DNA of 64,000 nucleotides, taken from positions 62,001 through 126,000 of the forward strand of contig DYIL01000005.1 of NCBI GenBank assembly GCA_020723665.1. Direction: 5' to 3'. The DNA comes from Methyloversatilis universalis. GTDB lineage: Bacteria; Pseudomonadota; Gammaproteobacteria; Methylococcales; Methylococcaceae. Positions within the stretch are counted from its first letter, which is position 1; the number at the start of each line of letters is the position of its first letter. The notes beneath the pieces were generated by a model. That model ran no database searches and was not told where the DNA came from. It was given only the letters and a program-made list of their open reading frames with translations. A program made the position numbers and the translations under genes. Of the stretch, positions 32,501-64,000 are shown in pieces.

Positions 32501-34126
32501 ATGGTTCATTTCGTCGTCTTTCTCACCGCTTTGTTCGTCGCGATGGTACTGGTCGCGGTGCTCATGCGGCTGGCGCCCCGTTTGGGCTTCGTGGACCTGC
32601 CGGACGGGCGCAAGATTCACCGCGCGGCGGTCCCCCGGATCGGCGGCATTGGCATGATCATCGGCGCCGTCGTCTCGGCATTGGCCTGGATCGACTTGAG
32701 CCGAAACAGCGAGATCTTTCTGTATGGCGTCGGCGTGATCGCCGCCTTCGGCCTGTGGGACGATCGCGTCGATCTCGATTACCGCATCAAGTTCGCCGGG
32801 CAGTTATTGGCGATCGCCGTAGTGGTCGGTTTCGGCGGCGTCGCGGTGGAACGTCTGCCCGGATTCGAGAACGGCGAAGTTCCATGGCTCGTTTCCTATC
32901 CTCTGACCGTTTTTTTTCTGCTCGGAACGACCAACGCCACCAATCTGGCGGACGGGTTGGACGGCCTCGCCGCCGGCCTGAGCCTTCTCAGCCTCGCCTG
33001 TATCGCGTTTCTGGCCGATCTGGCGGAAGGCGATGAATTGGTTTTCATCAACCTCGCGATTATCGGCGCGACGCTCGGTTTTCTCCGCTACAACACCCAT
33101 CCGGCCATGGTTTTCATGGGCGATACCGGCAGCCAGTTCCTCGGCTTCAGCCTGGGCGTGCTGGCGCTGATGCTGACCGAGCATGTGAACACGGCGGTGG
33201 CGCCGGGACTCGCTTTGCCGATCTTGGGACTACCCATCATCGACGCCTTGATGGTCATAGGGCAACGGATAGCCGAAGGACGATCCCCGTTTAAAGCCGA
33301 CAGGAATCATTTTCATCACAAGCTGCTGGCCTTGGGATTCGATCAATACGAGGCGGTACTGACCATATACGCCATTCAGTCGCTCTTCGTGACATCCGCT
33401 TATCTGCTCCGATACGAGTCGCACTGGCTGATCGCGGCGCTTTATCTCGGTCTGAGCGCCATGATCGTGCTGTCTTACCCGCTCGCCCGGAGCTTCGATT
33501 GGCGGTTGCACGGCGGCATGCGTTCCGGCAGCACCTCGCCTGTGACGGGCTTTCTTAAGTCTGTGCGCGACCGGGCAAGGTTGGACGAAACCCCGAATCG
33601 GGTGTTGAGTTTGCTCATTACCGGATTTCTGATCATGGGTGCCGTGGCGGCCAAGGAACTGACTCCCGATATCAGTTACTTTGTAGCCGCCAGTTTGGCG
33701 ATCTGGCTGGTTTTCCGTTTATTTGGACCGGCGGCGGTCAAATGGATAGAGCGGTTTGTGATTTACGCCAGTGTCATCCTGGTAATTTATTCAATCGAAC
33801 TGTCCGGCATTACGGAGCGACACTCATGGCACGCCGGGCTGAAATACTTCTTCATGATTTTGGCAGCTGTCACCGCCGTGGGTATGCGTTTCGCGGGATC
33901 TTATTATTTTTCCCTCACCCCGTCCGATTTTCTGGTCATATTCATCCTGCTGGCTGCGGCCAACCTGGCGGTTTTCGACGAGGTGAACTACGCCAAGCTG
34001 GCGATTCAGTCGGCGGTAGTGTTTTACAGCGTGGAGTTCGTCTTGAGGCGGCGTAGCGCCGCCAGTCTGACCATATCGATTGGGGCCATGGCAGCCTTCG
34101 TGATCGTCGGGGTCAAGGCGCTTTAG
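32501..34126 (+). CDS. WecA/MraY-family GlcNAc-1-phosphate transferase with C-terminal membrane extension
   Basis: From the ATG at 32501 this is a 541-residue membrane protein. The first 340 residues are a standard WecA-type enzyme that loads sugar-1-phosphate onto undecaprenyl phosphate. Motifs visible are GLWDD (Mg-binding aspartates), NATNLADGLDGLAAG, FMGDTGSQFLG and the cytoplasmic HxHH-type motif DRNHFHHKLL. About 200 residues of further membrane helices follow (from ETPNRVLSLLITGF), which ordinary WecA lacks. It ends the polysaccharide cluster and would start lipid-linked repeat-unit synthesis. Confidence 0.85.
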   Translation: MVHFVVFLTALFVAMVLVAVLMRLAPRLGFVDLPDGRKIHRAAVPRIGGIGMIIGAVVSALAWIDLSRNSEIFLYGVGVIAAFGLWDDRVDLDYRIKFAGQLLAIAVVVGFGGVAVERLPGFENGEVPWLVSYPLTVFFLLGTTNATNLADGLDGLAAGLSLLSLACIAFLADLAEGDELVFINLAIIGATLGFLRYNTHPAMVFMGDTGSQFLGFSLGVLALMLTEHVNTAVAPGLALPILGLPIIDALMVIGQRIAEGRSPFKADRNHFHHKLLALGFDQYEAVLTIYAIQSLFVTSAYLLRYESHWLIAALYLGLSAMIVLSYPLARSFDWRLHGGMRSGSTSPVTGFLKSVRDRARLDETPNRVLSLLITGFLIMGAVAAKELTPDISYFVAASLAIWLVFRLFGPAAVKWIERFVIYASVILVIYSIELSGITERHSWHAGLKYFFMILAAVTAVGMRFAGSYYFSLTPSDFLVIFILLAAANLAVFDEVNYAKLAIQSAVVFYSVEFVLRRRSAASLTISIGAMAAFVIVGVKAL

Positions 34127-34180
34127 AGCATTTTTGTCTCCCGCTCGCGGGCTATAGCCGGATGAATCATCGGGAAGCAG

Positions 34181-34200
34181 GTCGGCAATTCTTTGCCGAC
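34181..34200. terminator. Bidirectional hairpin between convergent genes
   Basis: GTCGGCAA-TTCT-TTGCCGAC is a perfect 8-bp stem with a tetraloop between the convergent wecA-like and dgkA genes. It lacks a long T-tract, so terminator function is inferred from position. Confidence 0.4.
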
Positions 34201-34220
34201 GCATGGATCTCGTGTCGCAA

Positions 34221-34592
34221 TCAGCCGAATTTCGGCAGCAGCACGAGCAGCCAGATGATTCCGGCCAAGGTCAAGGCCAGGAAAACCGCCGCAGAACCCA
34301 CGTCCTTCGCCCGGCCGGACAGCTCGTGGTGCTCGAAGCTGATCCGGTCGACCACGATTTCGATGCCGGTATTGAGCAGCTCGATGATCAGGACCAGCAG
34401 AATGCTTCCCACCAGCAACGCCTTTTCGAAACCGGTTTGCCCGAGCCAGAACCCCAAAGGACCGGTCACCGCGAGCAGATAAATTTCCTGACGGAAAGCT
34501 TCCTCGCTCAGCCAAACGGCCTTGAAGCCCTTCATGGAGTTGAAAAAAGCCGCGCGAATACGTGCCCACCCCGTGAGATTCTGACCTGCCAT
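34221..34592 (-). CDS. dgkA: Diacylglycerol kinase
   Basis: This 123-residue inner-membrane enzyme phosphorylates diacylglycerol to phosphatidic acid, recycling the lipid released by membrane-derived glucan or lipid-modifying reactions. It has three transmembrane helices, the N-terminal amphipathic helix (FNSMKGFKAVWLSEEAFRQE), and the conserved ELLNTGIEIVVDRIS and RAKDVGSAAV segments that form the active site. It is followed on the same strand by no gene, and preceded by a MurG-like transferase only 9 bp away. Confidence 0.95.
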   Translation of the reverse strand: MAGQNLTGWARIRAAFFNSMKGFKAVWLSEEAFRQEIYLLAVTGPLGFWLGQTGFEKALLVGSILLVLIIELLNTGIEIVVDRISFEHHELSGRAKDVGSAAVFLALTLAGIIWLLVLLPKFG

Positions 34593-34601
34593 AACTCGGT
34601 A

Positions 34602-35645
34602 TTACGCTTCGATTCGATGAACCTGGCCCCAGATACCATCCACCCAGGATTTGTCTACCCGCAAATCACCTTGCATCAGCCAGTCGACGACGGCTTGGGC
34701 CACATCGGGGTAGGCGACCCGCGCGGCGCGGCTCTGTTGTAGCCAGGCCTCCACGGTGGGGCCGTCCAGGCTTTGCATCACTTGGCCGAGTTGCAAGACT
34801 TCGAGAGCCAGCGCATTGGAGAGCTGCTCCATCTGACCGTGCAGCGGCTTGACCAGGAGCTTCTTGCCGAGATGGAGCGCTTCGCTGGTCAGTTCGAAGC
34901 CCGAGTTGCAGATCACGCCGGCGGCCTCGGCGAAGTCGTGCTGAAATCCCTTGCGGGAAAGCTGTTTGACGTGGACGTGCTCGGGTCTCGGATGGTGTTC
35001 GTCCAGCATGGTCGAACTGTAGACGTGAAACTGAAAATGGCGGAACGGTTTCAGCAATTGGACGACTTGTCGGACGTCTTCGAATGGCAGGTAGACGACG
35101 ATTTTGTTCGGCTGGACTGTCGCCGGTTCGATATCGGTCTCGATGATGGGCGGTAGGATGGGGTGATGGAAATGATGCCAATGCACGCCCAGGCCTACCG
35201 TGACCGGCGCGAAATACTTGAGCACCAGGCTTCCCATGAAATCGGCTTTCGCCTTGGGAATATCGTAACCGAAGGCATACTGATGGCCGATGCCGACCGT
35301 TTTGACGCCCTGCAGCCGTGCAGCCCAGGCGGTAACCGGTTCGAAATCGCTGATGACGACGTCGTACTGGCTCAAGTCCAGGGTTTTGACGTCACGGACG
35401 AAGGCTGCGAGATTGTTGCGAAAGGCGGTCTTGATATACCGCACGTGGCCGGCTTTGGTTTCGAAGGTGAGGCCGGTGCGCCATTGGTAGTCGCCGAAGA
35501 CATCCATTTCGAACAATTTTTCCCAAGGGCGGCCGGAGAACAGATAGGTGACCTCGGCTCCGGCTTGCTTGAGCTTGGGCGCGATCGCTCGAGCCCGGGT
35601 GATGTGACCGTTGCCGGTAGCCTGAACCCCATAAAACACTTTCAC
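34602..35645 (-). CDS. MurG-like glycosyltransferase (MJ1255/VC2487 type)
   Basis: The GTG at 35645 gives a 347-residue protein beginning MKVFYGVQATGNGHITRARAIAP, which matches the family N-terminus; the long frame upstream of this is a shadow of the PAP2 gene. The G-rich loop GNGHITRA and the C-terminal NSGFELTSEALHLGKKLLVKP (nucleotide-sugar site) are characteristic of this uncharacterised GT-B family. The start overlaps the PAP2 stop (GTGA), so the two are translationally coupled. The substrate is unknown; the pairing with a lipid phosphatase and DgkA suggests glycolipid metabolism. Confidence 0.8.
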   Translation of the reverse strand: MKVFYGVQATGNGHITRARAIAPKLKQAGAEVTYLFSGRPWEKLFEMDVFGDYQWRTGLTFETKAGHVRYIKTAFRNNLAAFVRDVKTLDLSQYDVVISDFEPVTAWAARLQGVKTVGIGHQYAFGYDIPKAKADFMGSLVLKYFAPVTVGLGVHWHHFHHPILPPIIETDIEPATVQPNKIVVYLPFEDVRQVVQLLKPFRHFQFHVYSSTMLDEHHPRPEHVHVKQLSRKGFQHDFAEAAGVICNSGFELTSEALHLGKKLLVKPLHGQMEQLSNALALEVLQLGQVMQSLDGPTVEAWLQQSRAARVAYPDVAQAVVDWLMQGDLRVDKSWVDGIWGQVHRIEA

Positions 35646-36166
35646 GTCAGTTGAATCTCCAAACTCAGAAGGGCCAAAAGGGTTCCCATCAGCGCGCCGA
35701 TCAGCGTGTCGGTGGGAAAGTGAACGCCGAGCACCACCCGCGCCATACCGATCGATACCGCCCAAATTACGAGCGCGGGTGTCAGGGCCGGGTGAAAGAA
35801 ACTCAGGAGCGTGGCCACCAGAAACGCCGCGGAGGTATGTCCGGACGGGAAGCTGAAACGGTCGGAAGGAATGATGAAGCTCGGAATGTTCAGCGCGGTC
35901 TGGGGGCGGTCGCGCCTGCATAAATTCTTGAGGATGAAATAGAGCGGGCGCTCCAGCGCGAAACCCACCAGCAGGCAGCTCAGCAGTGCCGATTCCTCGG
36001 GCTGTCCGGACCAGGCCAGCGCCAGGCCGAGGACGAGGTACAGGTACCCGTCTCCGGTCTTCGAGATGTATCGCGCACCCCGAACCAACACGCGTTGCGA
36101 TTTCCGTTGCGACACCCAAAGAAACAGATTGACGTCGTAGGCTTGAATCGTCTGCATGAATTTCAT
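35642..36166 (-). CDS. PAP2-family membrane phosphatase
   Basis: This 174-residue membrane protein has the three-part acid-phosphatase signature: KNLCRRDRP (motif 1), PSGHTSAAF (motif 2, with the catalytic histidine) and MARVVLGVHFPTD (motif 3). Family members remove phosphate from lipid phosphates such as phosphatidate or undecaprenyl pyrophosphate. It is the first gene of the PAP2-GT-dgkA group, which would link undecaprenyl or diacylglycerol phosphate turnover to glycosyl transfer. Confidence 0.88.
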   Translation of the reverse strand: MKFMQTIQAYDVNLFLWVSQRKSQRVLVRGARYISKTGDGYLYLVLGLALAWSGQPEESALLSCLLVGFALERPLYFILKNLCRRDRPQTALNIPSFIIPSDRFSFPSGHTSAAFLVATLLSFFHPALTPALVIWAVSIGMARVVLGVHFPTDTLIGALMGTLLALLSLEIQLT

Positions 36167-36292
36167 GGCACGTTACTCCCTCGAGATTACGCGCCTACTT
36201 TAGCCATCACAGATGACAATCCGGTGACGGAAAGATGAATAATCCTAGAAACGGCTGTCGGACGTGCGCGAGTGTGCGGCAGGCGGGGCGGC

Positions 36293-36390
36293 CGGCAAGC
36301 CTGTCCTGAGCCTGGTCGAAGGGCCTGTCCAGAGCCTGTCGAAGGGTTTCTTAAGCCTATTGGGATAGGCTCTTGATCAGAGCTTTCGTA
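36293..36390. repeat. Remnant of a family A end with a truncated family B copy (B3)
   Basis: Two copies of the CCTGTCC...GTCGAAGGG core are followed by TTAAGCCTATTGGGATAGGC (right half of family B) and then TTGATCAGAGCTTTC, which matches the right terminus of family A. The same order, B followed by an A end, is seen intact at 42400-42590. Confidence 0.65.
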
Positions 36391-36780
36391 AAGCGCATCG
36401 TTCGCGATTGCAGCGGTTCATGCCGTGGATCAGTTCGCCGGGAACCGAATGAGACAAACGAAGTTGGCCCTGCGGCCAAAGCTGGGGGTGGTTTTGCTCA
36501 ACTGAGACGTGCGACGCACGGCGCGAAGACGGGATCAGGGGCAGACGAGTGAATAGACCTATCCCCGCGGAGAGAGCGTAGTGGCGGCATTCTCCGTCTA
36601 TTCCCTTGGCCTTTTCATGGGAATAGACTATGTTTTTCTGCTTGTGGCGGTAACCGAGCGTCGCTTCATCCTAGACGAGGAGCGGAACGCCCTAGGGCAA
36701 CATGAGACAGGCGAGGGCCGGGAAGCGAGGACCGGCCAACGTGTGGGCAAACGTTCGGAGGCGCGGGACGAACAAGCATG

Positions 36781-36854
36781 AGGTAAGGCGCGACAAAAGC
36801 CTATTCTTCGTCGGCGGCATCACTGGGGTAAGGATGGCGTTTGAGTTCGGTCAT
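36781..36854 (-). pseudogene. IS5-family transposase N-terminal remnant with internal stop
   Basis: Read from ATG 36854, this gives MTELKRHPYPSDAADEE, a TAG stop, then AFVAPYL. It aligns with the better-preserved fragment at 39986-40189 (YPSDVSDSEWTFVVPYL), where the stop position is tryptophan, so a TGG to TAG change is likely. The GTTATAAACTTT sequence upstream also resembles the other fragment's upstream sequence. Only the start of the gene remains. Confidence 0.72.
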
Positions 36855-36921
36855 ACCGACTCATGACCGCTCTCCTGAAAGTTTATAACAAGCCTTAGAA
36901 AAACAAGAAAGGAGCCGGACG

Positions 36922-37686
36922 ATGCGCAACATCGAACTCTATCGGGACGACCAGCACCTGTGCATACTGCTCAATGAGAGCGAGGAGTTGGAAGAAGGCG
37001 GGATCCATTCCAACCAGTATCTGATTCTGCACCAAGGAAATGGAATCCTGCTTGATCCTGGGGGGTTCGGTGTGATGCCCGACGTGCTCGACGGTTTGCT
37101 GGAGTACTGCGAGCCTAAGGACATTAGAACCATTTTCCTGTCACACCAGGATCCGGATATCGTCGGGGGGCTTGCGTCCTGGCTAGAACTCACTCCGGCC
37201 GAGGTGTTCATTTCCCGGCTCTGGATCCGTTTCATCCCGCACTACGGTCTGCCTAGTTCCGGTCGACTCCACGGCATCGAAGATACCGGGGGCGCCATTC
37301 TGTTGGAAGACGGTGCCTCACTCGAGATCCTGCCGGCGCATTTCCTACACTCTGAAGGCAATTTTCAGCTCTATGACCCGGTAAGCCGGATCCTCTTTTC
37401 CGGAGACTTAGGCGCCTCCGAGATCAGCGGGCGGGAGCTTTCGCCATTCGTCGACGATTTCGCGACGCACATTTCGAATATCGAAGGGTTCCACCGCCGC
37501 TACATGGCCAGTCAACGGGCCATCGCCGCCTGGCTCGCGACCTTGGGAGATCGGCCTATCGACCTCATCGCTCCCCAGCATGGTCCCATCTACCGCGGCC
37601 AAGCGGCGCTTGATCTCCTCGCTTGGCTTGAAAACTTACACTGTGGTGTCGACTTACTCCAACCCGGCGGAATGTTTGTACGATGA
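36922..37686 (+). CDS. ODP-type di-iron metallo-beta-lactamase-fold protein (putative O2/redox sensor)
   Basis: This 254-residue soluble protein has the beta-lactamase fold of flavodiiron proteins but no flavodoxin domain. The metal ligands can be placed: the first motif is H75-Q-D77-P-D79-I rather than HxExDH, followed by H143 (FLHSEGN), D162 (LFSGDLG) and H220 (APQHGP). Replacement of the fourth histidine and presence of the HQDPD motif are the marks of the oxygen-binding di-iron (ODP) family, whose characterised member in Treponema senses O2/iron for chemotaxis. There is no signal peptide. The stop overlaps the start of the GGDEF/EAL gene (ATGA), so the two are translated together. An iron-redox sensing role is inferred. 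Confidence 0.78.
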   Translation: MRNIELYRDDQHLCILLNESEELEEGGIHSNQYLILHQGNGILLDPGGFGVMPDVLDGLLEYCEPKDIRTIFLSHQDPDIVGGLASWLELTPAEVFISRLWIRFIPHYGLPSSGRLHGIEDTGGAILLEDGASLEILPAHFLHSEGNFQLYDPVSRILFSGDLGASEISGRELSPFVDDFATHISNIEGFHRRYMASQRAIAAWLATLGDRPIDLIAPQHGPIYRGQAALDLLAWLENLHCGVDLLQPGGMFVR

Positions 37687-39830
37687 ACCAGTTCACGCCG
37701 AAGGATTTGCTGCGGCTGCGCCGGGAGATCCTGCGCGCCGCGGCCTCGCTTCACGAGCATCAAACACGCACGCATCTTGCATTTAACGCCATCGGCCGCG
37801 CGACCGCGCACGCGCAAACGCGGTTTGCGAATCGCCTGCTGGAGTTGGCTTCCCGCCCGGATGCCACGCCGGAACTCGCCGAACTCCAACGCGAGTGTCT
37901 GCGCTGGCGGCTGGTGCAGGTGCACCTCCGGCGTTATTACGAAAACCATTTGCGCGAACATGGCGAGGACTTGCGCAGGCTTTTGCATTATTTCGAGGCG
38001 GAGAGCCGCGAGCTCGCGGAAACTTTGGTCGAGAAAGAGTTGTTGGAGCGCCACCGCAAGGTGCTCGAGCGGGTCGTGCTCTCCTACGATCGTGTTATCC
38101 ACTGGCGCGAGTTCGTGGAGGAAGTCCTCTCTGAATTTCACCAGATATTCCCGTTCGATATCTTCTTCGTTGCGTTTTCGGAAAAGCACGGGCTCAGCTT
38201 GCGCCTATTCTACCCCGGTACCCCCACCGAATCCCAACGCCAGCACGTGGAAACGTGGCTTACCCACCAGGTGTTGCGCCGGCTCGGCCAATCGGACGAT
38301 GCCGTATTCGACATCGAGGTGCGGGTGCTCGATCCTGCGCCGTGGAAGATGAAGATAACGAACGAATCGATGCAGCTTTTGTGCGAACCCGTACCGGACT
38401 ACCGGCAAGGTTTGGCCGGCATTCTGGGGGTGGCGTTCGGTGTGTGTGGAGGGGTTTCCGAGCAGGAGGAGGCGGTGATTCGCTCTCTACTCGCGGTCAT
38501 GGTGATCGTGGTGGGTTCGAGCCGGGCGCTCGCGAACACGCTTCAGGAATTGGAATACTACGCCCTCCACGATCCCTTGACTCATCTGTACAACCGTCGC
38601 CATTTTCTGGCGATGTTGGATTATGAACTCGGACGCAGCCGAAGGCACCATCATCCGTTTTCGTTGGTGATGATCGACCTGGACGATTTCAAGGACATCA
38701 ATGACACCTACGGTCATCCGACGGGCGACTTGGCGCTTCAGGAAGTCGGAGAAATCCTCAGGAAGACAGTGCGTCAGGGCGATTTGGCATGTCGTCTTGG
38801 GGGGGACGAATTCGTGCTGCTACTCCCGGAAACCGCTTCGGGAGGGGCTAGGACAACCGCCCGCAAACTCCGCGAGCGATTGCGCGCGAAGGAAATCGCG
38901 ACCCAAGAGACAAGTTTCCACCTCACCTGTTCCATCGGGGTCGTCACTTACCCCGAGGACGGCGATACCTCCGAAAGCTTGCTGGCGCACCTGGATCTCG
39001 CCACTTATCAAGCCAAGCGCCGCGGCAAGGACGATGTCTGCCTCTATGGAGAAATGCGCCAAGCGGGTTTCGCCACGGGCGAGGGCGACTCGTGGAAGCT
39101 CCGCGAGGAGGCCGAAGTCTTGCGCGCCGCGCTCAAGGAGGGCAGAATCGTCCCCTACTTCCAGCCTATACTCGACGTTGGGACGGGAAGGATCGTCGCC
39201 TACGAAGTTCTGGCGCGGCTCCTCGAGGAGGAAGGCGTGGTCACGCCCGCCGGCCGTTTCATCGGGGCCATCGAAAAATATGGCCTGGGCCGGGAACTCG
39301 ATCGGCACATCATCACTGAGGCGCTGTCGGTCTTGCGGGTGAAGGGTGCGTCCACGCCACGCTTGTTCCTCAACCTTTCGGCGCAAGAAATTCAACACCG
39401 CAATGTGCTGGGATTTGCCGCGAGGCTGTGTCATCAATGGCGGATCGCGCCTAGCCAGATCGTGTTCGAATTGTTGGAACGCGACGCCGTCTCCGATATC
39501 GAGAAAGTACGCGGGTTCATCGCACAGTTGCGCAGAAAGGGTTTCGGGTTCGCGCTCGACGATTTCGGCAGCGGCTATAATTCTTTCCACTACCTGCGCG
39601 AACTGGAGTTCGATTTCGTCAAAATCGACGGGGCATTCATCCTTGGTATCGAGAATTCAACCAAGGACGAGGTGTTGGTGCGCAATCTGGTGCGCTTATG
39701 TCGGGATCTGGGAATCCAGACCGTGGCGGAGTACGTTGAAAATGAAGTTCTCTTTCGGCGGCTGCGGGAGTTGGGCGTAACGCACGTGCAGGGATACCAC
39801 ATCGGCCTGCCGCGGCCGGTGCTGGAATAA
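37683..39830 (+). CDS. Dual GGDEF/EAL cyclic-di-GMP enzyme with N-terminal helical and GAF-like region
   Basis: This 715-residue protein has no membrane segments. Residues 1-130 are highly helical, residues 135-285 look like a GAF-type sensory domain (inference from pattern only), and the GGDEF domain spans about 290-455. GGDEF is intact at 373-377, with an intact inhibitory site R364-QG-D367. The EAL domain spans about 475-715. It has EVL at 508-510 in place of EAL but keeps NLS, ELLERD, DDFGSGY, KIDG, AEYVEN and QGYHIG, so phosphodiesterase activity is possible. It is coupled by ATGA overlap to the ODP-like gene, which probably supplies the input. Output could be synthesis or breakdown of c-di-GMP. 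Confidence 0.9.
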   Translation: MNQFTPKDLLRLRREILRAAASLHEHQTRTHLAFNAIGRATAHAQTRFANRLLELASRPDATPELAELQRECLRWRLVQVHLRRYYENHLREHGEDLRRLLHYFEAESRELAETLVEKELLERHRKVLERVVLSYDRVIHWREFVEEVLSEFHQIFPFDIFFVAFSEKHGLSLRLFYPGTPTESQRQHVETWLTHQVLRRLGQSDDAVFDIEVRVLDPAPWKMKITNESMQLLCEPVPDYRQGLAGILGVAFGVCGGVSEQEEAVIRSLLAVMVIVVGSSRALANTLQELEYYALHDPLTHLYNRRHFLAMLDYELGRSRRHHHPFSLVMIDLDDFKDINDTYGHPTGDLALQEVGEILRKTVRQGDLACRLGGDEFVLLLPETASGGARTTARKLRERLRAKEIATQETSFHLTCSIGVVTYPEDGDTSESLLAHLDLATYQAKRRGKDDVCLYGEMRQAGFATGEGDSWKLREEAEVLRAALKEGRIVPYFQPILDVGTGRIVAYEVLARLLEEEGVVTPAGRFIGAIEKYGLGRELDRHIITEALSVLRVKGASTPRLFLNLSAQEIQHRNVLGFAARLCHQWRIAPSQIVFELLERDAVSDIEKVRGFIAQLRRKGFGFALDDFGSGYNSFHYLRELEFDFVKIDGAFILGIENSTKDEVLVRNLVRLCRDLGIQTVAEYVENEVLFRRLRELGVTHVQGYHIGLPRPVLE

Positions 39831-39867
39831 ACGCGTTGGCCTCGCCTGGCGAACACAACGGAGAGTT

Positions 39868-39895
39868 GAGCACCTCGAAAGACTTCGAGGTGCTC
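39868..39895 (+). terminator. Perfect 12-bp hairpin after the GGDEF/EAL gene
   Basis: GAGCACCTCGAA-AGAC-TTCGAGGTGCTC forms a perfect stem with a 4-nt loop 37 bp downstream of the stop codon. There is no T-tract. A related hairpin occurs at 61838-61861, so it may be a dispersed repeat rather than a dedicated terminator. Confidence 0.5.
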
Positions 39896-39985
39896 GTAGG
39901 GGGCAGGGATGCCCCGTCGTTTTCGGCCACGCAAGTGGTTGAAAACGTAAGCCAAGCTCAAACCGCGCTTGGATTTTTCGAGGTC

Positions 39986-40189
39986 TCAAGTTTTAATCAC
40001 GCCATTGAAGATCTCACGCGAATCGTGCTGGCGTTGCGGCGCGTCCGCCTTCATCAAGGTTAAATAAGGCACGACGAAGGTCCATTCGGAGTCCGACACA
40101 TCGCTAGGATAAGGTTTACGAGTCATCATGCTCGTAATAACCACTTCATCCAGCAAAAAGTTCATAACATGCACTAGTGGACGCATCAC
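39986..40189 (-). pseudogene. IS5-family transposase N-terminal fragment
   Basis: The 67-residue frame contains TRKPYPSDVSDSEWTFVVPY and then APQRQHDSREIFNG, the conserved N-terminal (DUF4096-type) segment of IS5-family transposases. It then stops after VIKT, whereas a full transposase would continue for about 200 residues. It has the same orientation as the remnant at 36781-36854 on the other side of the ODP-GGDEF/EAL pair. Confidence 0.8.
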
Positions 40190-40257
40190 CCATACCCATG
40201 GCTTGGGGATTCGGCAAGGTTGCCTGGGAGGTCAACGAGTTTTTGGACATCGTCTAA

Positions 40258-40400
40258 TTCCATTTCTCAATCAAAAGGAAAACGTTGTAGGCCGGAATGA
40301 GCCCTTCGACTCCGCTCAGGACAGGCCCTTCGACGTTGCTCAGGACGGGCTTATCTCGGCCTACCATTAAAGAAACTTTCTTTTTGTTCGAAAAATGGAA
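40258..40400. mobile_element. Family C MITE, copy C2 (TAA duplication)
   Basis: This 143-bp element runs from TTCCATTTCTCAATCAAAAG to TTTGTTCGAAAAATGGAA, inverted ends of about 20 bp. It is flanked by TAA at 40255-40257 and 40401-40403. It contains the GTCGAAGGG/CTCAGGACAGG core twice. Confidence 0.85.
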
Positions 40401-40552
40401 TAAGCCTAATTCAAGGATGTCACCATCTGCTTTGAACGTTCCAATCGGCAAGACTTCTTCCGGCACGTTTTCCCCGAGGGGATGTCGGGCGAATTCGTCG
40501 GCTCCGTGAAGGGGATCAATACGGCGCTCGGTACATGGCTCGGAAACGAAAA

Positions 40553-41593
40553 TCAGGAATACCGCTGCCACCACGCCGCCGGACGCGGGCCGTTTTTCGA
40601 AATGCGGGCCAGATAGCTTTCGAAGAGGAGGGCGCAGTCGCGCCAGGAGTATTGGAGAGCGTATCGACGGCAGTCTTCGGGATCGAGTTTCAACGCCTCG
40701 GTAACGGCTTTTTTTAGGTCTTCGTCGAGACAGCCGACCCGTTTGCTCAGAATCACGTCCTTCGGACCTTCCACCGGAAACGCCGCGACCGGAACGCCAG
40801 AGGCCAAAGCTTCCAACATCACCAGACCGAAGGTATCGGTCCGGCTCGGAAAAACGAAGACGTCGGCGGCCGCGAGATAGCGGGCGAGTTCCTCGCCGTA
40901 CTTGTAACCGACGAAGCGAACTTCAGGATGTTTTTTCTCAAGCTCCTCCCTTTGCGGTCCATCGCCGACCACGTATTTGGTGCCCGGCAGATCCAGTTCC
41001 AGGAATGCCTCGACATTCTTTTCGATCGCCAGCCGGCCGGCGTAGAGGAGAATGGGGCGGGCATCGGGAAGAAAATCCTTGCCTCGTGGGCGGAACAGTT
41101 CCGTGTCCACTCCGCGCGACCACAACACCGGATTCTTGAAGCCCCGCGCCTTGAGTTCCTCCAACAAGGTCGGCGTCGCGGTCATCAGGCGCACGCTCTC
41201 GCCGTGAAACCAGCGCAGAAAGGCATAGCCGACAGCGAGCGGTAGACCGGTGCGGAGATGGATGTATTCGGCGAAGCGGGTGTGGAAAGAGCTCGTGAAG
41301 GGTAGCCCGCGCCGTTTGCAATAACTTCGAGCGGCCATCCCCAGCGGGCCTTCGGTGGCGATATGAATGGCATCGGGTTGGAATTGATCGAGCCGGGCGC
41401 GGAGTTTCGGTCCACAGCCCAGCGCCAGCCGGATTTCGGGATAGCTCGGACAGGGCCAGTTGCGAAACTGATCGGGCGTAAAGGTTTCGACCGTGTGTCC
41501 GATGGCGCGAAGCTGCTCGCAAATCGTGCGGAGCGTGGTGACCACGCCGTTAGTTTGTGGTGACCAGGCGTCCGTGATCAGGGCGAGTTTCAA
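40553..41593 (-). CDS. GT4-family glycosyltransferase
   Basis: The TTG at 41593 (MKLALITDAWSPQTNGVV) matches the usual start of this GT4 subgroup and gives 346 residues; the longer frame upstream overlaps the phosphoesterase gene. Other marks are FTSSFHTRFAEYIHLRTG, LLYAGRLAIEKNVEAFLEL and the EX7E region SRTDTFGLVMLEALASG. It overlaps the preceding LpxH-like gene by 44 bp, forming a two-gene unit seen in many gammaproteobacteria. The acceptor is probably a membrane lipid such as diacylglycerol or phosphatidylinositol-type, but this cannot be read from sequence. Confidence 0.85.
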   Translation of the reverse strand: MKLALITDAWSPQTNGVVTTLRTICEQLRAIGHTVETFTPDQFRNWPCPSYPEIRLALGCGPKLRARLDQFQPDAIHIATEGPLGMAARSYCKRRGLPFTSSFHTRFAEYIHLRTGLPLAVGYAFLRWFHGESVRLMTATPTLLEELKARGFKNPVLWSRGVDTELFRPRGKDFLPDARPILLYAGRLAIEKNVEAFLELDLPGTKYVVGDGPQREELEKKHPEVRFVGYKYGEELARYLAAADVFVFPSRTDTFGLVMLEALASGVPVAAFPVEGPKDVILSKRVGCLDEDLKKAVTEALKLDPEDCRRYALQYSWRDCALLFESYLARISKNGPRPAAWWQRYS

Positions 41594-42359
41594 GCGCGGA
41601 ATCCTCAAGGAGTTGAGTGCTTTCTTCCAGCCAGCGGATGACGGACAGGGTGCCGGCATGGCTTTCGGCCAGGGCGGTGCAGCTTTCCACCCAATCGCCG
41701 CAGTTGGCGTACAGCGTGCCGTGTTCGGCGGTCCGAATGGTTGCATGGTGAATGTGGCCGCAAATCACGCCGTCCAGCTTCTGTTCGTGGGCTTCGTGGA
41801 TCAGCGCCCGCTCGAAATCGAAGATGAAGTTCACGGCGTTCTTCACCCTGTGCTTGATGTAGGCCGACATCGACCAGTAGGGAAAGCCGAGAATGCGGCG
41901 GACCTGATTGAACCAGCGGTTGACCTCGATCAGGAAGTCGTAGGCGCCGCTGCCGAGAACGGCCAGCCAGCGGCTGGAGCACACCACGCCGTCGAACTCG
42001 TCGCCGTGCAGCACCAGAAGCCGACGTCCGGTGGCCGTTTCGTGGACTGCCCGGGCGTGGATCTCGATCCCGTTGAATACGGTGCCGATATAGCCGCGGA
42101 AGACTTCGTCGTGATTGCCCGGGATGTAGATCACCCGTGTGCCCCGCGCCGCCATCGCCATGACGACGCGTACGATCTCGTTGTGCAGGCGGGGCCAGTA
42201 AAAGCCGCTTTTCAGCTTCCAGAAATCGATGATGTCGCCTACCAGATAGAGGTGTTCGCATTCGATGTGTCGCAGGAAATCAAGGAGGTACTCGTCCTTG
42301 CAGCCCCTCGTTCCGAGATGTACGTCGGAAATCCAAATGGTACGGTATTTCAGCTTCAT
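41550..42359 (-). CDS. LpxH-like metallophosphoesterase (UDP-2,3-diacylglucosamine diphosphatase family)
   Basis: This 269-residue calcineurin-like phosphoesterase has the full set of metal-binding motifs: ISDVHLG, GDIIDFW, GNHDE, LHGDEFD and GHIHHA. LpxH enzymes hydrolyse UDP-2,3-diacylglucosamine to lipid X in lipid A synthesis. This version is longer than E. coli LpxH (240) and is paired with a GT4 transferase, as are many LpxH-like paralogues whose substrate is a different lipid pyrophosphate. I would not assign lpxH without knowing whether another copy exists. Confidence 0.82.
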   Translation of the reverse strand: MKLKYRTIWISDVHLGTRGCKDEYLLDFLRHIECEHLYLVGDIIDFWKLKSGFYWPRLHNEIVRVVMAMAARGTRVIYIPGNHDEVFRGYIGTVFNGIEIHARAVHETATGRRLLVLHGDEFDGVVCSSRWLAVLGSGAYDFLIEVNRWFNQVRRILGFPYWSMSAYIKHRVKNAVNFIFDFERALIHEAHEQKLDGVICGHIHHATIRTAEHGTLYANCGDWVESCTALAESHAGTLSVIRWLEESTQLLEDSALETRPDHGRLVTTN

Positions 42360-42399
42360 GGATTACCCTTGCAGCGGTTGAAGCGAGCGAAGACCTTTT

Positions 42400-42590
42400 G
42401 GAAGCTTCTGAACAAGTTGATTCCGTTCACGCCCTTCGACAGGCTCCCGCCTGCTGCAGGCAGGAGCCTGTCGAAGGACTTAGAGCCTATCCCGATAGGC
42501 TTAAGAAACCCTCCGACAAGCCTGTCCTGAGATAAGTCGAAGGGCTCAGGGCGAACGGCCTATTGGGATAGGCTCTTAACCAGAGCTCCC
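42400..42590. mobile_element. Short family A element interrupted by family B copy
   Basis: The left terminus GGAAGCTTCTGAACAAG (42400) continues with the same body as the 82-bp copy at 60207-60288 up to GTCGAAGGACTT. At that point a B element is inserted, after which the expected A right terminus resumes as AACCAGAGCTCCC (to 42590). The outer flanks (TTTT and TTAT) no longer match. Confidence 0.8.
42483..42575. repeat. Family B element, copy B4, nested in family A (TTA duplication)
   Basis: The 93-bp element begins GAGCCTATCCCGATAGGC and ends GCCTATTGGGATAGGCTC and is flanked by TTA at 42480-42482 and 42576-42578. Removing it with one TTA restores the continuous family A sequence GACTTAACCAGAG, which confirms both boundaries and the 3-bp duplication. 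Confidence 0.88.
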
Positions 42591-61994: not shown

Positions 61995-64000
61995 ATGAAT
62001 CGGCTGGTCCGAATCGCCAGAACCCCGTGGATACTAACCCTTGCGACCGCACTCATGGTGTATGCGCTAGTCGGGTTCTCGCTGGTTCCTTTTCTGGTGC
62101 AGCGTTATCTGCCCAAGGCGGCCGCCGACCAGCTCAAGCGGGAGGCGTCGGTCGGTCAAGTCGACTTCAATCCCTTTTCGTTCGCTCTCGAAGCCCGCGA
62201 TTTCAAACTGAACGACACGGATGGTCAGACTGTTTTTCAACTCGGCCGCTTGTTTGTGAATTTCGAACTCGAGAGTATTTTCCGCCGAGCCTGGACCTTT
62301 TCCGATCTGCGCCTGGAAAACCCCTCGTTGAGAGCCGTCGTCGACGAAGACGGCAAACTCAACCTGGCAAAAATCGCCAAAGCCAGACCAAAAGCGAAGG
62401 AGCCGGAACAGCCCGACGAGCCGCTCCCCCGCTTTCTACTCAAGCACTTCGAGCTGACGAACGGTTCCGTGCAATACGCCGATTACTCCAAAGACAGCGA
62501 TATTGTCGAAACGGTGAGCCCGATCGACTTTGAACTCAATACGCTCACGACCTTGCCGCAAAAGACAGGTACTTACGAACTCGTTCTCAAATTCGTGGAC
62601 GGCGGAACTCTCGAATGGCGGGGAAATCTATCGCTGCAACCGATCCTGTCCGAGGGCGACCTACGCTTGGACGATTTCAATCTGGCGCTCCTGTGGAAAT
62701 ACTTTCGAGACCGCCTCAATCTGGCCGAGCCGTCCGGTCTGGCCGCGTTGTCGGCCCACTACCGGTACAGCCGGAACGGCGAAAAAACCGACCTGTCCCT
62801 GACCAATCTCGGACTCAAGCTGTCGGCACTGCGCTTCGCCATGCCTGATACCGACGATCCGATCCTGGCGCTGGAAAAGATCGAGGCTGCCAATGGCGCG
62901 TTCGACCTGGCCGGCCGCTCGCTCACCGTACCCTCCTTCGTCATCGAGAACGGCCAAGTCCGGGCGTCCGTAGACGCAGGCGGCTCCCTGAACTGGAAAG
63001 AGTTGGTGAAAGGGAAGCCGAACGGCAGTCCTTCGAATCCATCCAGTACGCCGCAAGACACCGAGCCCGAAACGCCCTGGAAGCTGGCGGTCGAAAATTT
63101 CAAAATCGCCGACGTCGGCGTGGCGTATGCCGATGCTAGCCGCCGTTCGCCTTACCTCGTTTCGATCGACCAATTCGGTCTCGATCTCGGAGTCCAGGCG
63201 GAACTCGGCGCGGGTACGACTAAAGCCCGTATCGACGGACTGACGGCGATCCTGAACGGGATCGCGCTGACCGAACCCGGCTCTTCCGCCCCCTTGGCGG
63301 TCTGGGATGCGCTCGAACTGGCAGAAGGACGATTGGATCTCGAACAACGCGAGGCGATCATCGGGCGCGCCGCGTTGAAGGGCGGCAACGCCCAAATCGT
63401 TCGAGACAAGGCCGGTACCATTCGTCTGGCCGAACTCTTCGCCCCCAAATCGGACGAGACCGGCACGAAGACGCCCGCCGCTGAAGCCCCAGCCGACAAG
63501 TCCGCGGAGCAGTCATGGCGCTTCGCGCTCAATGCGTTCGCACTGGAGGAATTCGATCTCGGCGTCGTCGACCATGGCTACTCTTCCGAAATCGCCTATG
63601 ACTTCGAGGACATCAACATCGCCCTCAAAAACCTCACCAACGACGGCGAGACGCCAGTCGAATTCGACGCCAGCCTCAAGGTCAAACAGGGCGGTGCGGT
63701 GAAGGCGACGGGCACGGCATCCCCTAAAGGCGATCGGGCGGACGCCAAGATCGAGGTGGACCGAATAAACCTGAAGGGGTTGCACCCCCTGGTCGCAGAA
63801 TTCGCCAAGCTCAAGCTCGAAAGCGGCGAGTTGTCCACGGCCATGAACGTGGAATTCGTCCGAACCCCGAAAGCTCCGTCAGTCAGGAGCAAGGGCGATG
63901 TCAGTGTTTCCGATCTGCTGTTGAACGAGACCGAGAGCGGCAAACGTTTTCTGTCCTGGAAAAAGCTTTCCGCAACCGACATCGACTTTTCACTCGAACC
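61995..64000 (+). CDS. DUF748/AsmA-like envelope protein (partial, C-terminus beyond window)
   Basis: From ATG 61995 the frame is open to the end of the window (about 668 residues). It starts with a short cytoplasmic tail and one transmembrane helix (ILTLATALMVYALVGFSLVPF), followed by a long periplasmic region of repeated amphipathic beta strands. Typical pieces are GQVDFNPFSFALEARDFKL, LRLENPSLRAVVDEDGKLNL and LKHFELTNGSVQYADYS. This is the pattern of DUF748 proteins, relatives of AsmA/TamB bridge-like proteins thought to act in lipid or outer-membrane-protein transport across the periplasm. Full members have 900-1300 residues. Confidence 0.82.
   Translation, partial: MNRLVRIARTPWILTLATALMVYALVGFSLVPFLVQRYLPKAAADQLKREASVGQVDFNPFSFALEARDFKLNDTDGQTVFQLGRLFVNFELESIFRRAWTFSDLRLENPSLRAVVDEDGKLNLAKIAKARPKAKEPEQPDEPLPRFLLKHFELTNGSVQYADYSKDSDIVETVSPIDFELNTLTTLPQKTGTYELVLKFVDGGTLEWRGNLSLQPILSEGDLRLDDFNLALLWKYFRDRLNLAEPSGLAALSAHYRYSRNGEKTDLSLTNLGLKLSALRFAMPDTDDPILALEKIEAANGAFDLAGRSLTVPSFVIENGQVRASVDAGGSLNWKELVKGKPNGSPSNPSSTPQDTEPETPWKLAVENFKIADVGVAYADASRRSPYLVSIDQFGLDLGVQAELGAGTTKARIDGLTAILNGIALTEPGSSAPLAVWDALELAEGRLDLEQREAIIGRAALKGGNAQIVRDKAGTIRLAELFAPKSDETGTKTPAAEAPADKSAEQSWRFALNAFALEEFDLGVVDHGYSSEIAYDFEDINIALKNLTNDGETPVEFDASLKVKQGGAVKATGTASPKGDRADAKIEVDRINLKGLHPLVAEFAKLKLESGELSTAMNVEFVRTPKAPSVRSKGDVSVSDLLLNETESGKRFLSWKKLSATDIDFSLE

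Follow-up and report, generated by a model that had tools for sequence, protein, structure and literature searches.

In a 64,000-nucleotide stretch of the Methyloversatilis universalis genome (contig DYIL01000005.1 of assembly GCA_020723665.1, forward-strand positions 62,001 to 126,000; hereafter the window), a gene for an oxygen-binding di-iron protein (ODP) runs directly into a gene for a GGDEF/EAL enzyme of cyclic di-GMP (c-di-GMP) turnover. In the ODP clade to which the first protein belongs, adjacency of the two genes is exclusive and reciprocal wherever it could be tested. We propose that the ODP senses through a metal site and, as a subunit in contact with the enzyme, controls it; to this reading we give a probability of roughly three in four. 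A preliminary description, made from the letters of the window and a list of their open reading frames (ORFs), had already seen here a candidate oxygen-gated c-di-GMP module. The present analysis supports that interpretation within two limits, namely the clade-specific nature of the adjacency and a GAF-like domain in the enzyme that had been overlooked.

The first gene encodes an ODP

By profile, fold and ligand set, the product of the first gene is an ODP. It matches the Pfam profile PF19583 from end to end with 237.2 bits (cut-off 27.2), and its two best sequence matches in the PDB are both ODPs (6qrq, E 4e-72; 6qnm, E 2e-66). The ligand set that the preliminary description had read from the sequence, H75-x-D77-x-D79, H143, D162 and H220 without the fourth histidine, recurs in the solved proteins: all six residues are identical in 6qrq and 6qnm, and position 80, which we take to be the site of the further histidine in flavodiiron proteins, is I in the window protein and V in both structures. 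An AlphaFold2 (AF2) model built from 28 sequences (pLDDT 86.8, pTM 0.89) lies nearest to the ODP of Thermotoga maritima (6qwo and 6qrq, Z 34.9, root-mean-square deviation (rmsd) 1.9 over 249 residues) and close to that of Treponema denticola (6qnm, Z 32.0; peroxy-diiron form 6r9n, Z 31.9). Flavodiiron proteins are the next family in this ranking, from Z 26.3, and Foldseek returned ODP chains at all of ranks 1-10. The family assignment of the preliminary description is thus upheld, and membership of this family suggests an O2-binding di-iron site in the window ODP.

Pfam at E <= 0.01 gives only ODP and Lactamase_B for this protein, with no flavodoxin domain; at the same threshold there was no match to the H-NOX haem domain (HNOB), nor to haemerythrin in either protein of the pair. 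An NCBIfam label, SoxH_rel_PQQ_1, was set aside, its score of 19.1 bits being far below the threshold of 300.

All six ligand residues are present in 92 of 93 ODPs of the pair clade, the exception being locus L056. These 93 comprise 80 named loci and 13 further sequences (the window protein and family-profile matches), with four records counted twice, and only the counts for H143 and D162 are unbiased, because the 80 named loci were retrieved with patterns containing H75-D79 or H220. Outside the clade the six residues are kept in 111/111 ODPs examined, so the ligand set marks the ODP family and not the pair clade. The genome that holds L056 (G008) also carries a second pair (L043) with intact ODP ligands.

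The second gene encodes a GGDEF/EAL enzyme with a further predicted domain

The stop codon of the ODP gene and the start of the enzyme gene share the bases ATGA, an overlap that had been noticed from the beginning. The second product is a GGDEF/EAL tandem enzyme with predicted catalytic activity, and both domains score above their Pfam cut-offs. Among 85 aligned relatives (three records are included twice), the GGDEF motif, D332, N340, D341 and the I-site R364xxD367 are conserved in 85/85, as are E508, N564, E596, E599, D626 and D627 of the EAL domain; K647, D649, E683 and Q703 are conserved in 84/85. What each of these residues does is taken from general knowledge of GGDEF and EAL domains. 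The EAL motif itself reads E-V-L in the window enzyme and E-T-L in most relatives. These counts bear out the earlier view of an intact GGDEF motif and I-site and a largely intact EAL domain.

An AF2 model of enzyme residues 1-299 (45 sequences, pLDDT 82.5, pTM 0.59) shows long helices at 7-56 and 63-155, then a mixed domain and a final helix at 260-296. The best PDB alignments of this model cover residues 113-299, and include a bacteriophytochrome diguanylate cyclase, matched in its PHY/GAF region (5llw, Z 11.2, 149 residues at rmsd 3.1), and DosP (9bgv, Z 10.8, to the GAF-like domain). GAF domains are common among the Foldseek matches, none of them at E <= 0.001, and the region has no Pfam match. 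Residues of about 113-290 may accordingly be called a GAF/PHY-like domain, a fold call of middling strength. The N-terminal helical hairpin contributes little to this structural comparison, which says nothing on its novelty.

The preliminary description had reported no PAS, globin or membrane domain in the enzyme and had taken the ODP to be its obvious input. The absence of these three domains agrees with Pfam, and adjacency supports the ODP as an input, but the GAF/PHY-like domain in the predicted fold had escaped notice and could be another input to the enzyme. Hydropathy over 19 residues peaks at 1.85, from residue 265, inside the last GAF-like helix, and the enzyme is likely soluble. The best PDB sequence match of residues 1-288, an aspartate oxidase at E 0.014, is not credible.

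Table 1. Features of the ODP-enzyme pair and of the insert that bears it (window coordinates)
Feature	Position	Strand	Basis or remark
ODP gene	36922..37686	+	254 residues; metallo-beta-lactamase fold; PF19583 match, PDB sequence matches, AF2 model
GGDEF/EAL enzyme gene	37683..39830	+	715 residues; start overlaps ODP stop by 4 bases
N-terminal helical hairpin of enzyme (residues ~1-112)	37683..38018	+	AF2 helices; tracks ODP
GAF/PHY-like domain of enzyme (residues ~113-290), predicted	38019..38552	+	AF2 model, structural alignments
GGDEF domain of enzyme (residues 294-450)	38562..39032	+	Pfam; GGDEF motif and I-site RxxD intact
EAL domain of enzyme (residues 479-710)	39117..39812	+	Pfam; catalytic residues intact, motif EVL
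Insert of ~4.29 kb bearing the pair	36246..40533		blastn of flanks and marker spacing
Possible IS4/IS5-type transposase remnant in insert	39986..40189	-	DUF4096 match below cut-off
Inverted repeat, left arm (39 nt)	36297..36335		near insert end
Inverted repeat, right arm	40314..40352		87% complementary to left arm

Adjacency is reciprocal within the clade

An alignment of 12 ODP sequences retrieved 348 relatives in named genomes, and the best 80 of the 348 were analysed. Since L168 (the same record as L072) ends at a contig edge, 79 loci have room downstream, and a c-di-GMP enzyme lies directly downstream of the ODP in 79/79. In 78 of them it is an ORF with a matching enzyme N-terminus, and in the remaining one (L211, Legionella norrlandica) a GGDEF ORF. 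N-terminus, GGDEF and EAL stand in a single open frame in 73/78; of the other five, L160, L201 and L204 are split and L180 and L183 reach a contig end. By NCBI class the 80 loci fall into Betaproteobacteria (31), Gammaproteobacteria (31), Hydrogenophilia (5) and Alphaproteobacteria (1, a metagenome-assembled genome), with 12 unplaced. The genera with the pair include methane-, methanol-, iron- and hydrogen-oxidising as well as denitrifying bacteria of oxic-anoxic boundaries. Spacing between the two genes is -11 to +10 bases in 79/81 pairs and exactly -4 in 30/81, measured from the possible start nearest the ODP stop, which favours small values. Duplicate records (L049=L199, L039=L191, L112=L222) were removed from spacing and distance analyses and retained in nearest-relative and residue counts.

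Searches that started from the enzyme gave the same result. In the nearest-kin sample (41 genomes), where 25 of 50 listed matches (at least 190 bits) were followed up, 11/11 full-length enzyme matches adjoin an ODP; two weaker matches (L057 and L058) have no ODP by phmmer. In the order sample (121 genomes; E <= 1e-30 for the enzyme N-terminus profile and E <= 1e-80 for the ODP profile), each profile found 28 places in 24 genomes, covering 9 of 36 genera, and 27 of the 28 places neighbour each other. All 27 enzymes with a complete N-terminus adjoin an ODP. The unpaired enzyme match (G406), in which the hairpin is missing, is cut off by a contig end, and the unpaired ODP (G455) is set apart by its score of 274 bits, where the other 27 all reach 346 or more. 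By eye, the G455 ODP adjoins a short ORF that resembles a roadblock-type protein. In the class sample (369 genomes; E <= 1e-40 for ODP, at most six candidates scored per genome), 4/4 matches covering the whole enzyme N-terminus adjoin an ODP, and 0/12 matches that start at profile position 73-130 (51-94 bits) lie beside a listed ODP. The three samples share genomes and are thus not independent. Adjacency in the named loci, the nearest-kin sample and the order sample together excludes chance. The co-conservation of ODP genes with c-di-GMP enzymes on which the preliminary description depended is found within this clade, in 79/79 named loci and 27/27 enzymes of the order sample.

The pair moves as a unit. 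The same genome holds a second, diverged pair on contig C63, whose ODP is 55% and whose enzyme is 47% identical to the window proteins. The nearest relatives of the window pair are in Tepidiphilus (ODP 70-72%, enzyme 56-58%), and those of the second pair are in congeners (ODP 85%, enzyme 82-85%). Moreover, blastn of the flanks shows that the syntenic site in two congeners (G001 and G003) is without the insert listed in Table 1. Flanking markers are 5.4 kb apart in the window genome and about 1.1-1.2 kb apart in three congeners, the absence in the third (G002) being judged from marker spacing only. Within the insert there is a DUF4096 match (E 1.7e-4, 22.2 bits, under the curated cut-off of 34.3), and a 39-nt inverted repeat lies near its ends.

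The hairpin is the part that follows the ODP

Where this could be tested, the whole hairpin was found only beside an ODP. In L211 (6001-7656) the short partner of the ODP has both the hairpin (profile E 9e-13) and a GGDEF domain, and neither GAF nor EAL; conversely, none of the class matches that have the GAF region without most of the hairpin adjoin a listed ODP. From these two patterns we take the hairpin to be the likely docking site of the ODP.

Other branches of the ODP family

Neighbourhoods were read for 125 ODP ORFs from the nearest-kin and class searches. Twelve of the 125 adjoin a window-type enzyme, and five (L051, L146, L148, L150, L151) have a separate GGDEF gene beside them. Three are single-chain ODP-GGDEF proteins (L149, 4659-6761 +; L153, 3897-5744 -; L154, 153-1976 +), with ODP N-terminal, GGDEF C-terminal and a linker of ~180 residues between; the linker of L153, checked singly, matched no Pfam family. 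A histidine kinase gene directly follows the ODP in three loci (L142, L147, L155), the L155 ODP frame lying in a gene with one in-frame TAG. Some N-termini of these other ODP-linked effectors share, by eye, an E-R-x-R-x-x-W-like stretch with the hairpin. A short chemoreceptor-like open frame stands just upstream of the ODP in 16/125 according to a purpose-built model, and Pfam finds MCPsignal in one of the 16 (L036, below cut-off). In two loci (L144, L145) a chemoreceptor lies downstream. Pfam over 114 neighbour and fusion proteins, with figures from the first 25 of 127 families, gave MCPsignal 15, GGDEF 8, CheR 5, HATPase_c 3 and Pkinase 2.

A tree of 141 ODPs was made by a quick method with SH-aLRT support only. 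It includes 17 of the 80 named loci and omits L199 (a copy of L049) and L143 (a fragment, also left out of the ligand counts). Window-type ODPs form a clade of 30 rows with support 98, of which 28 have the enzyme, one is the Legionella GGDEF locus and one is L072, truncated by the contig edge. A clade of 15 rows (support 99) takes in the remaining GGDEF, fusion and kinase rows, and one of 36 rows (support 99) the chemoreceptor rows, with 18/36 labelled. Relations between the clades are unsure, because long branches meet in the tree.

Within pair loci there is a further association. In 12 of them a PAS-bearing chemoreceptor, which we take to be Aer-like, stands directly beside the pair, within ~130 bases of the open frame: before the ODP in L206, L208, L209, L210, L216, L232 and L233, and after the enzyme in L046, L056, L159, L160 and L212. 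Pfam finds PAS, HAMP (below cut-off) and MCPsignal in the L209 receptor.

A proposed control module and its relation to known systems

We suggest that the two genes form a two-protein oxygen- or iron-responsive module for the control of c-di-GMP. The di-iron site of the ODP would bind O2, as expected from its family, and the ODP would dock as a separate subunit on the N-terminal hairpin of the enzyme. Its iron or peroxo state might then pass along the long helix and through the GAF-like domain, and may set the balance between synthesis by GGDEF and breakdown by EAL. The closest working analogue is H-NOX with SwDGC (PMC8846402), in which a haem protein takes the place of the ODP. If the proposal is correct, ODPs, familiar as chemotaxis sensors, would govern the messenger of biofilm formation and motility as well in the bacteria of oxic-anoxic boundaries named above. 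In addition, the system is compact, and its di-iron O2 chemistry, docking and c-di-GMP turnover would all be measurable in vitro.

The pair would give a sensor family already described an output that is new for it, while the layout, a separate gas sensor with a c-di-GMP enzyme, has precedents. The known output of ODPs is chemotaxis (PMC7666581, PMC6978683), and known O2 inputs to c-di-GMP are haem domains and haemerythrin (PMC8846402, PMC9388753). The preliminary description had called a c-di-GMP partner a different output. Judged by titles and abstracts in the literature searched, which covered few subscription journals, we found no account of an ODP paired with a c-di-GMP enzyme or of a c-di-GMP output of an ODP. 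The ODP of T. denticola (TDE2498) is a separate sensor gene genetically coupled to a methyl-accepting chemotaxis protein homologue without a sensing module (PMC7666581). The window ODP has the family, fold and ligand set of TDE2498 and of T. maritima ODP; unlike in those ODP-chemoreceptor systems, its direct partner is a GGDEF/EAL enzyme, and ODPs with short chemoreceptors form a clade separate from the window type.

In H-NOX systems (SwH-NOX/SwDGC, Hnox1/Lpg1057, H-NOX/Dgc1) a stand-alone sensor is likewise paired with a c-di-GMP enzyme, and SwDGC has both activities, the balance of which is shifted by nitric oxide (NO) (PMC8846402). However, H-NOX differs in fold and senses NO through haem, whereas the window sensor has the ligands for a di-iron site on a metallo-beta-lactamase fold. 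A non-haem di-iron site controls c-di-GMP turnover in haemerythrin c-di-GMP enzymes (PMC9388753), as is proposed for the window pair. In those enzymes the sensor domain is fused in the chain, and the window proteins have no haemerythrin match. DosC and DosP of Escherichia coli are haem O2-sensing c-di-GMP enzymes with the haem domains fused to the enzymes. Their O2-to-c-di-GMP logic is alike and DosP is among the best structural matches of the GAF-like domain, but no haem domain was found in the window pair. As for contact, the metallo-beta-lactamase-fold protein PqsE (Z 18.8 to the ODP model) has been solved in complex with RhlR, which it regulates; PqsE belongs to another family and its partner is a transcription factor.

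Alternative explanations

Several observations weigh against the proposed control. The adjacency is clade-specific, most other ODPs examined being beside chemoreceptors or beside no gene that could be labelled. A c-di-GMP domain is the direct partner of, or fused to, 20/125 ODPs, and one clade of the tree holds 60 rows, ODPs of the class, in which the ligands are intact and a partner could not be labelled (GGDEF is near but not operon-like in a few of them, ~1 kb downstream in L109, ~0.7 kb downstream in L139 and on the other strand in L103), so that an ODP need not always be a sensor. The ODP of L056 (6920-7600) is degenerate, with D77 replaced and the H220 region missing, and still adjoins a retained GGDEF/EAL enzyme. 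ODP and enzyme distances correlate closely (r 0.913 over 82 pairs, 0/999 permutations as high), but shared descent alone would give such a correlation, which speaks for co-inheritance and not for contact. When profiles were compared, no support was obtained for a match of the hairpin to the N-termini of six further GGDEF or kinase proteins linked to ODPs (E 0.35), or of the linker in the fusions to the GAF-like domain (E 0.15). Finally, the true input may enter the enzyme through its GAF-like domain.

One rival reading is that the ODP is itself an enzyme, similar to O2 or NO reductases or to a hydrolase, and acts without contact by producing or consuming a small molecule that the GAF-like domain recognises. 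Its fold is common to flavodiiron reductases and hydrolases in the structure comparison, and a GAF-like domain is predicted in its partner. We consider this improbable all the same, since the Legionella partner keeps hairpin and GGDEF without GAF, the 12 class matches with the GAF region and without most of the hairpin are not beside listed ODPs, and a flavodoxin domain, which could supply electrons, is missing from the ODP. Still less credence can be given to mere co-transcription of two genes, with the ODP doing separate work. Many ODPs do lack a signalling neighbour that could be labelled; against this stand the reciprocal adjacency, the restriction of the whole hairpin to ODP neighbours, the second diverged pair in the same genome and the fusions in another clade.

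Two variants overlap with sensory control by contact and concern its details. The enzyme may work in one direction only, as a cyclase or a phosphodiesterase, or may be a silent c-di-GMP receptor. In many GGDEF/EAL tandems one of the two activities prevails, and E-T-L or E-V-L replaces the EAL motif in most members, but the residues of both active sites and of the I-site recur in 84 or 85 of 85 relatives, and we regard this variant as less likely than not while taking it seriously. It is rather unlikely that the ODP, with the same docking, senses NO, iron supply or redox state and not O2. In its favour, the characterised ODP is titled an Fe[II] and oxygen sensor in citing papers (PMC6978683, PMC10653840), and in haemerythrin di-iron c-di-GMP enzymes it is the redox state, not a ligand, that regulates activity (PMC9388753). 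However, ligand set and fold match O2-binding ODPs, including the solved peroxy-diiron form 6r9n, and Aer-like receptors stand beside the pair in 12 loci. Aer-like receptors also report redox state. Beyond sensory control of this one enzyme, we lean slightly towards a wider picture in which the ODP is a general plug-in di-iron receptor for O2 or iron that has diversified by clade, with short chemoreceptors as its known output and with c-di-GMP enzymes and histidine kinases as new ones. The pair described here would then be a dedicated mobile switch, with docking through the hairpin, that shifts an enzyme of two activities from synthesis to breakdown and back.

Sequences around the locus

Rfam gave no match at gathering scores over 34000-42500, and no sigma-70-like promoter was found at 36150-40260. 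With a consensus taken from general knowledge and at <= 2 mismatches, there is no FNR-like box between 36167 and 36921; over the whole window 28 such boxes occur against 17.9 expected, and 2/100 shuffles have as many.

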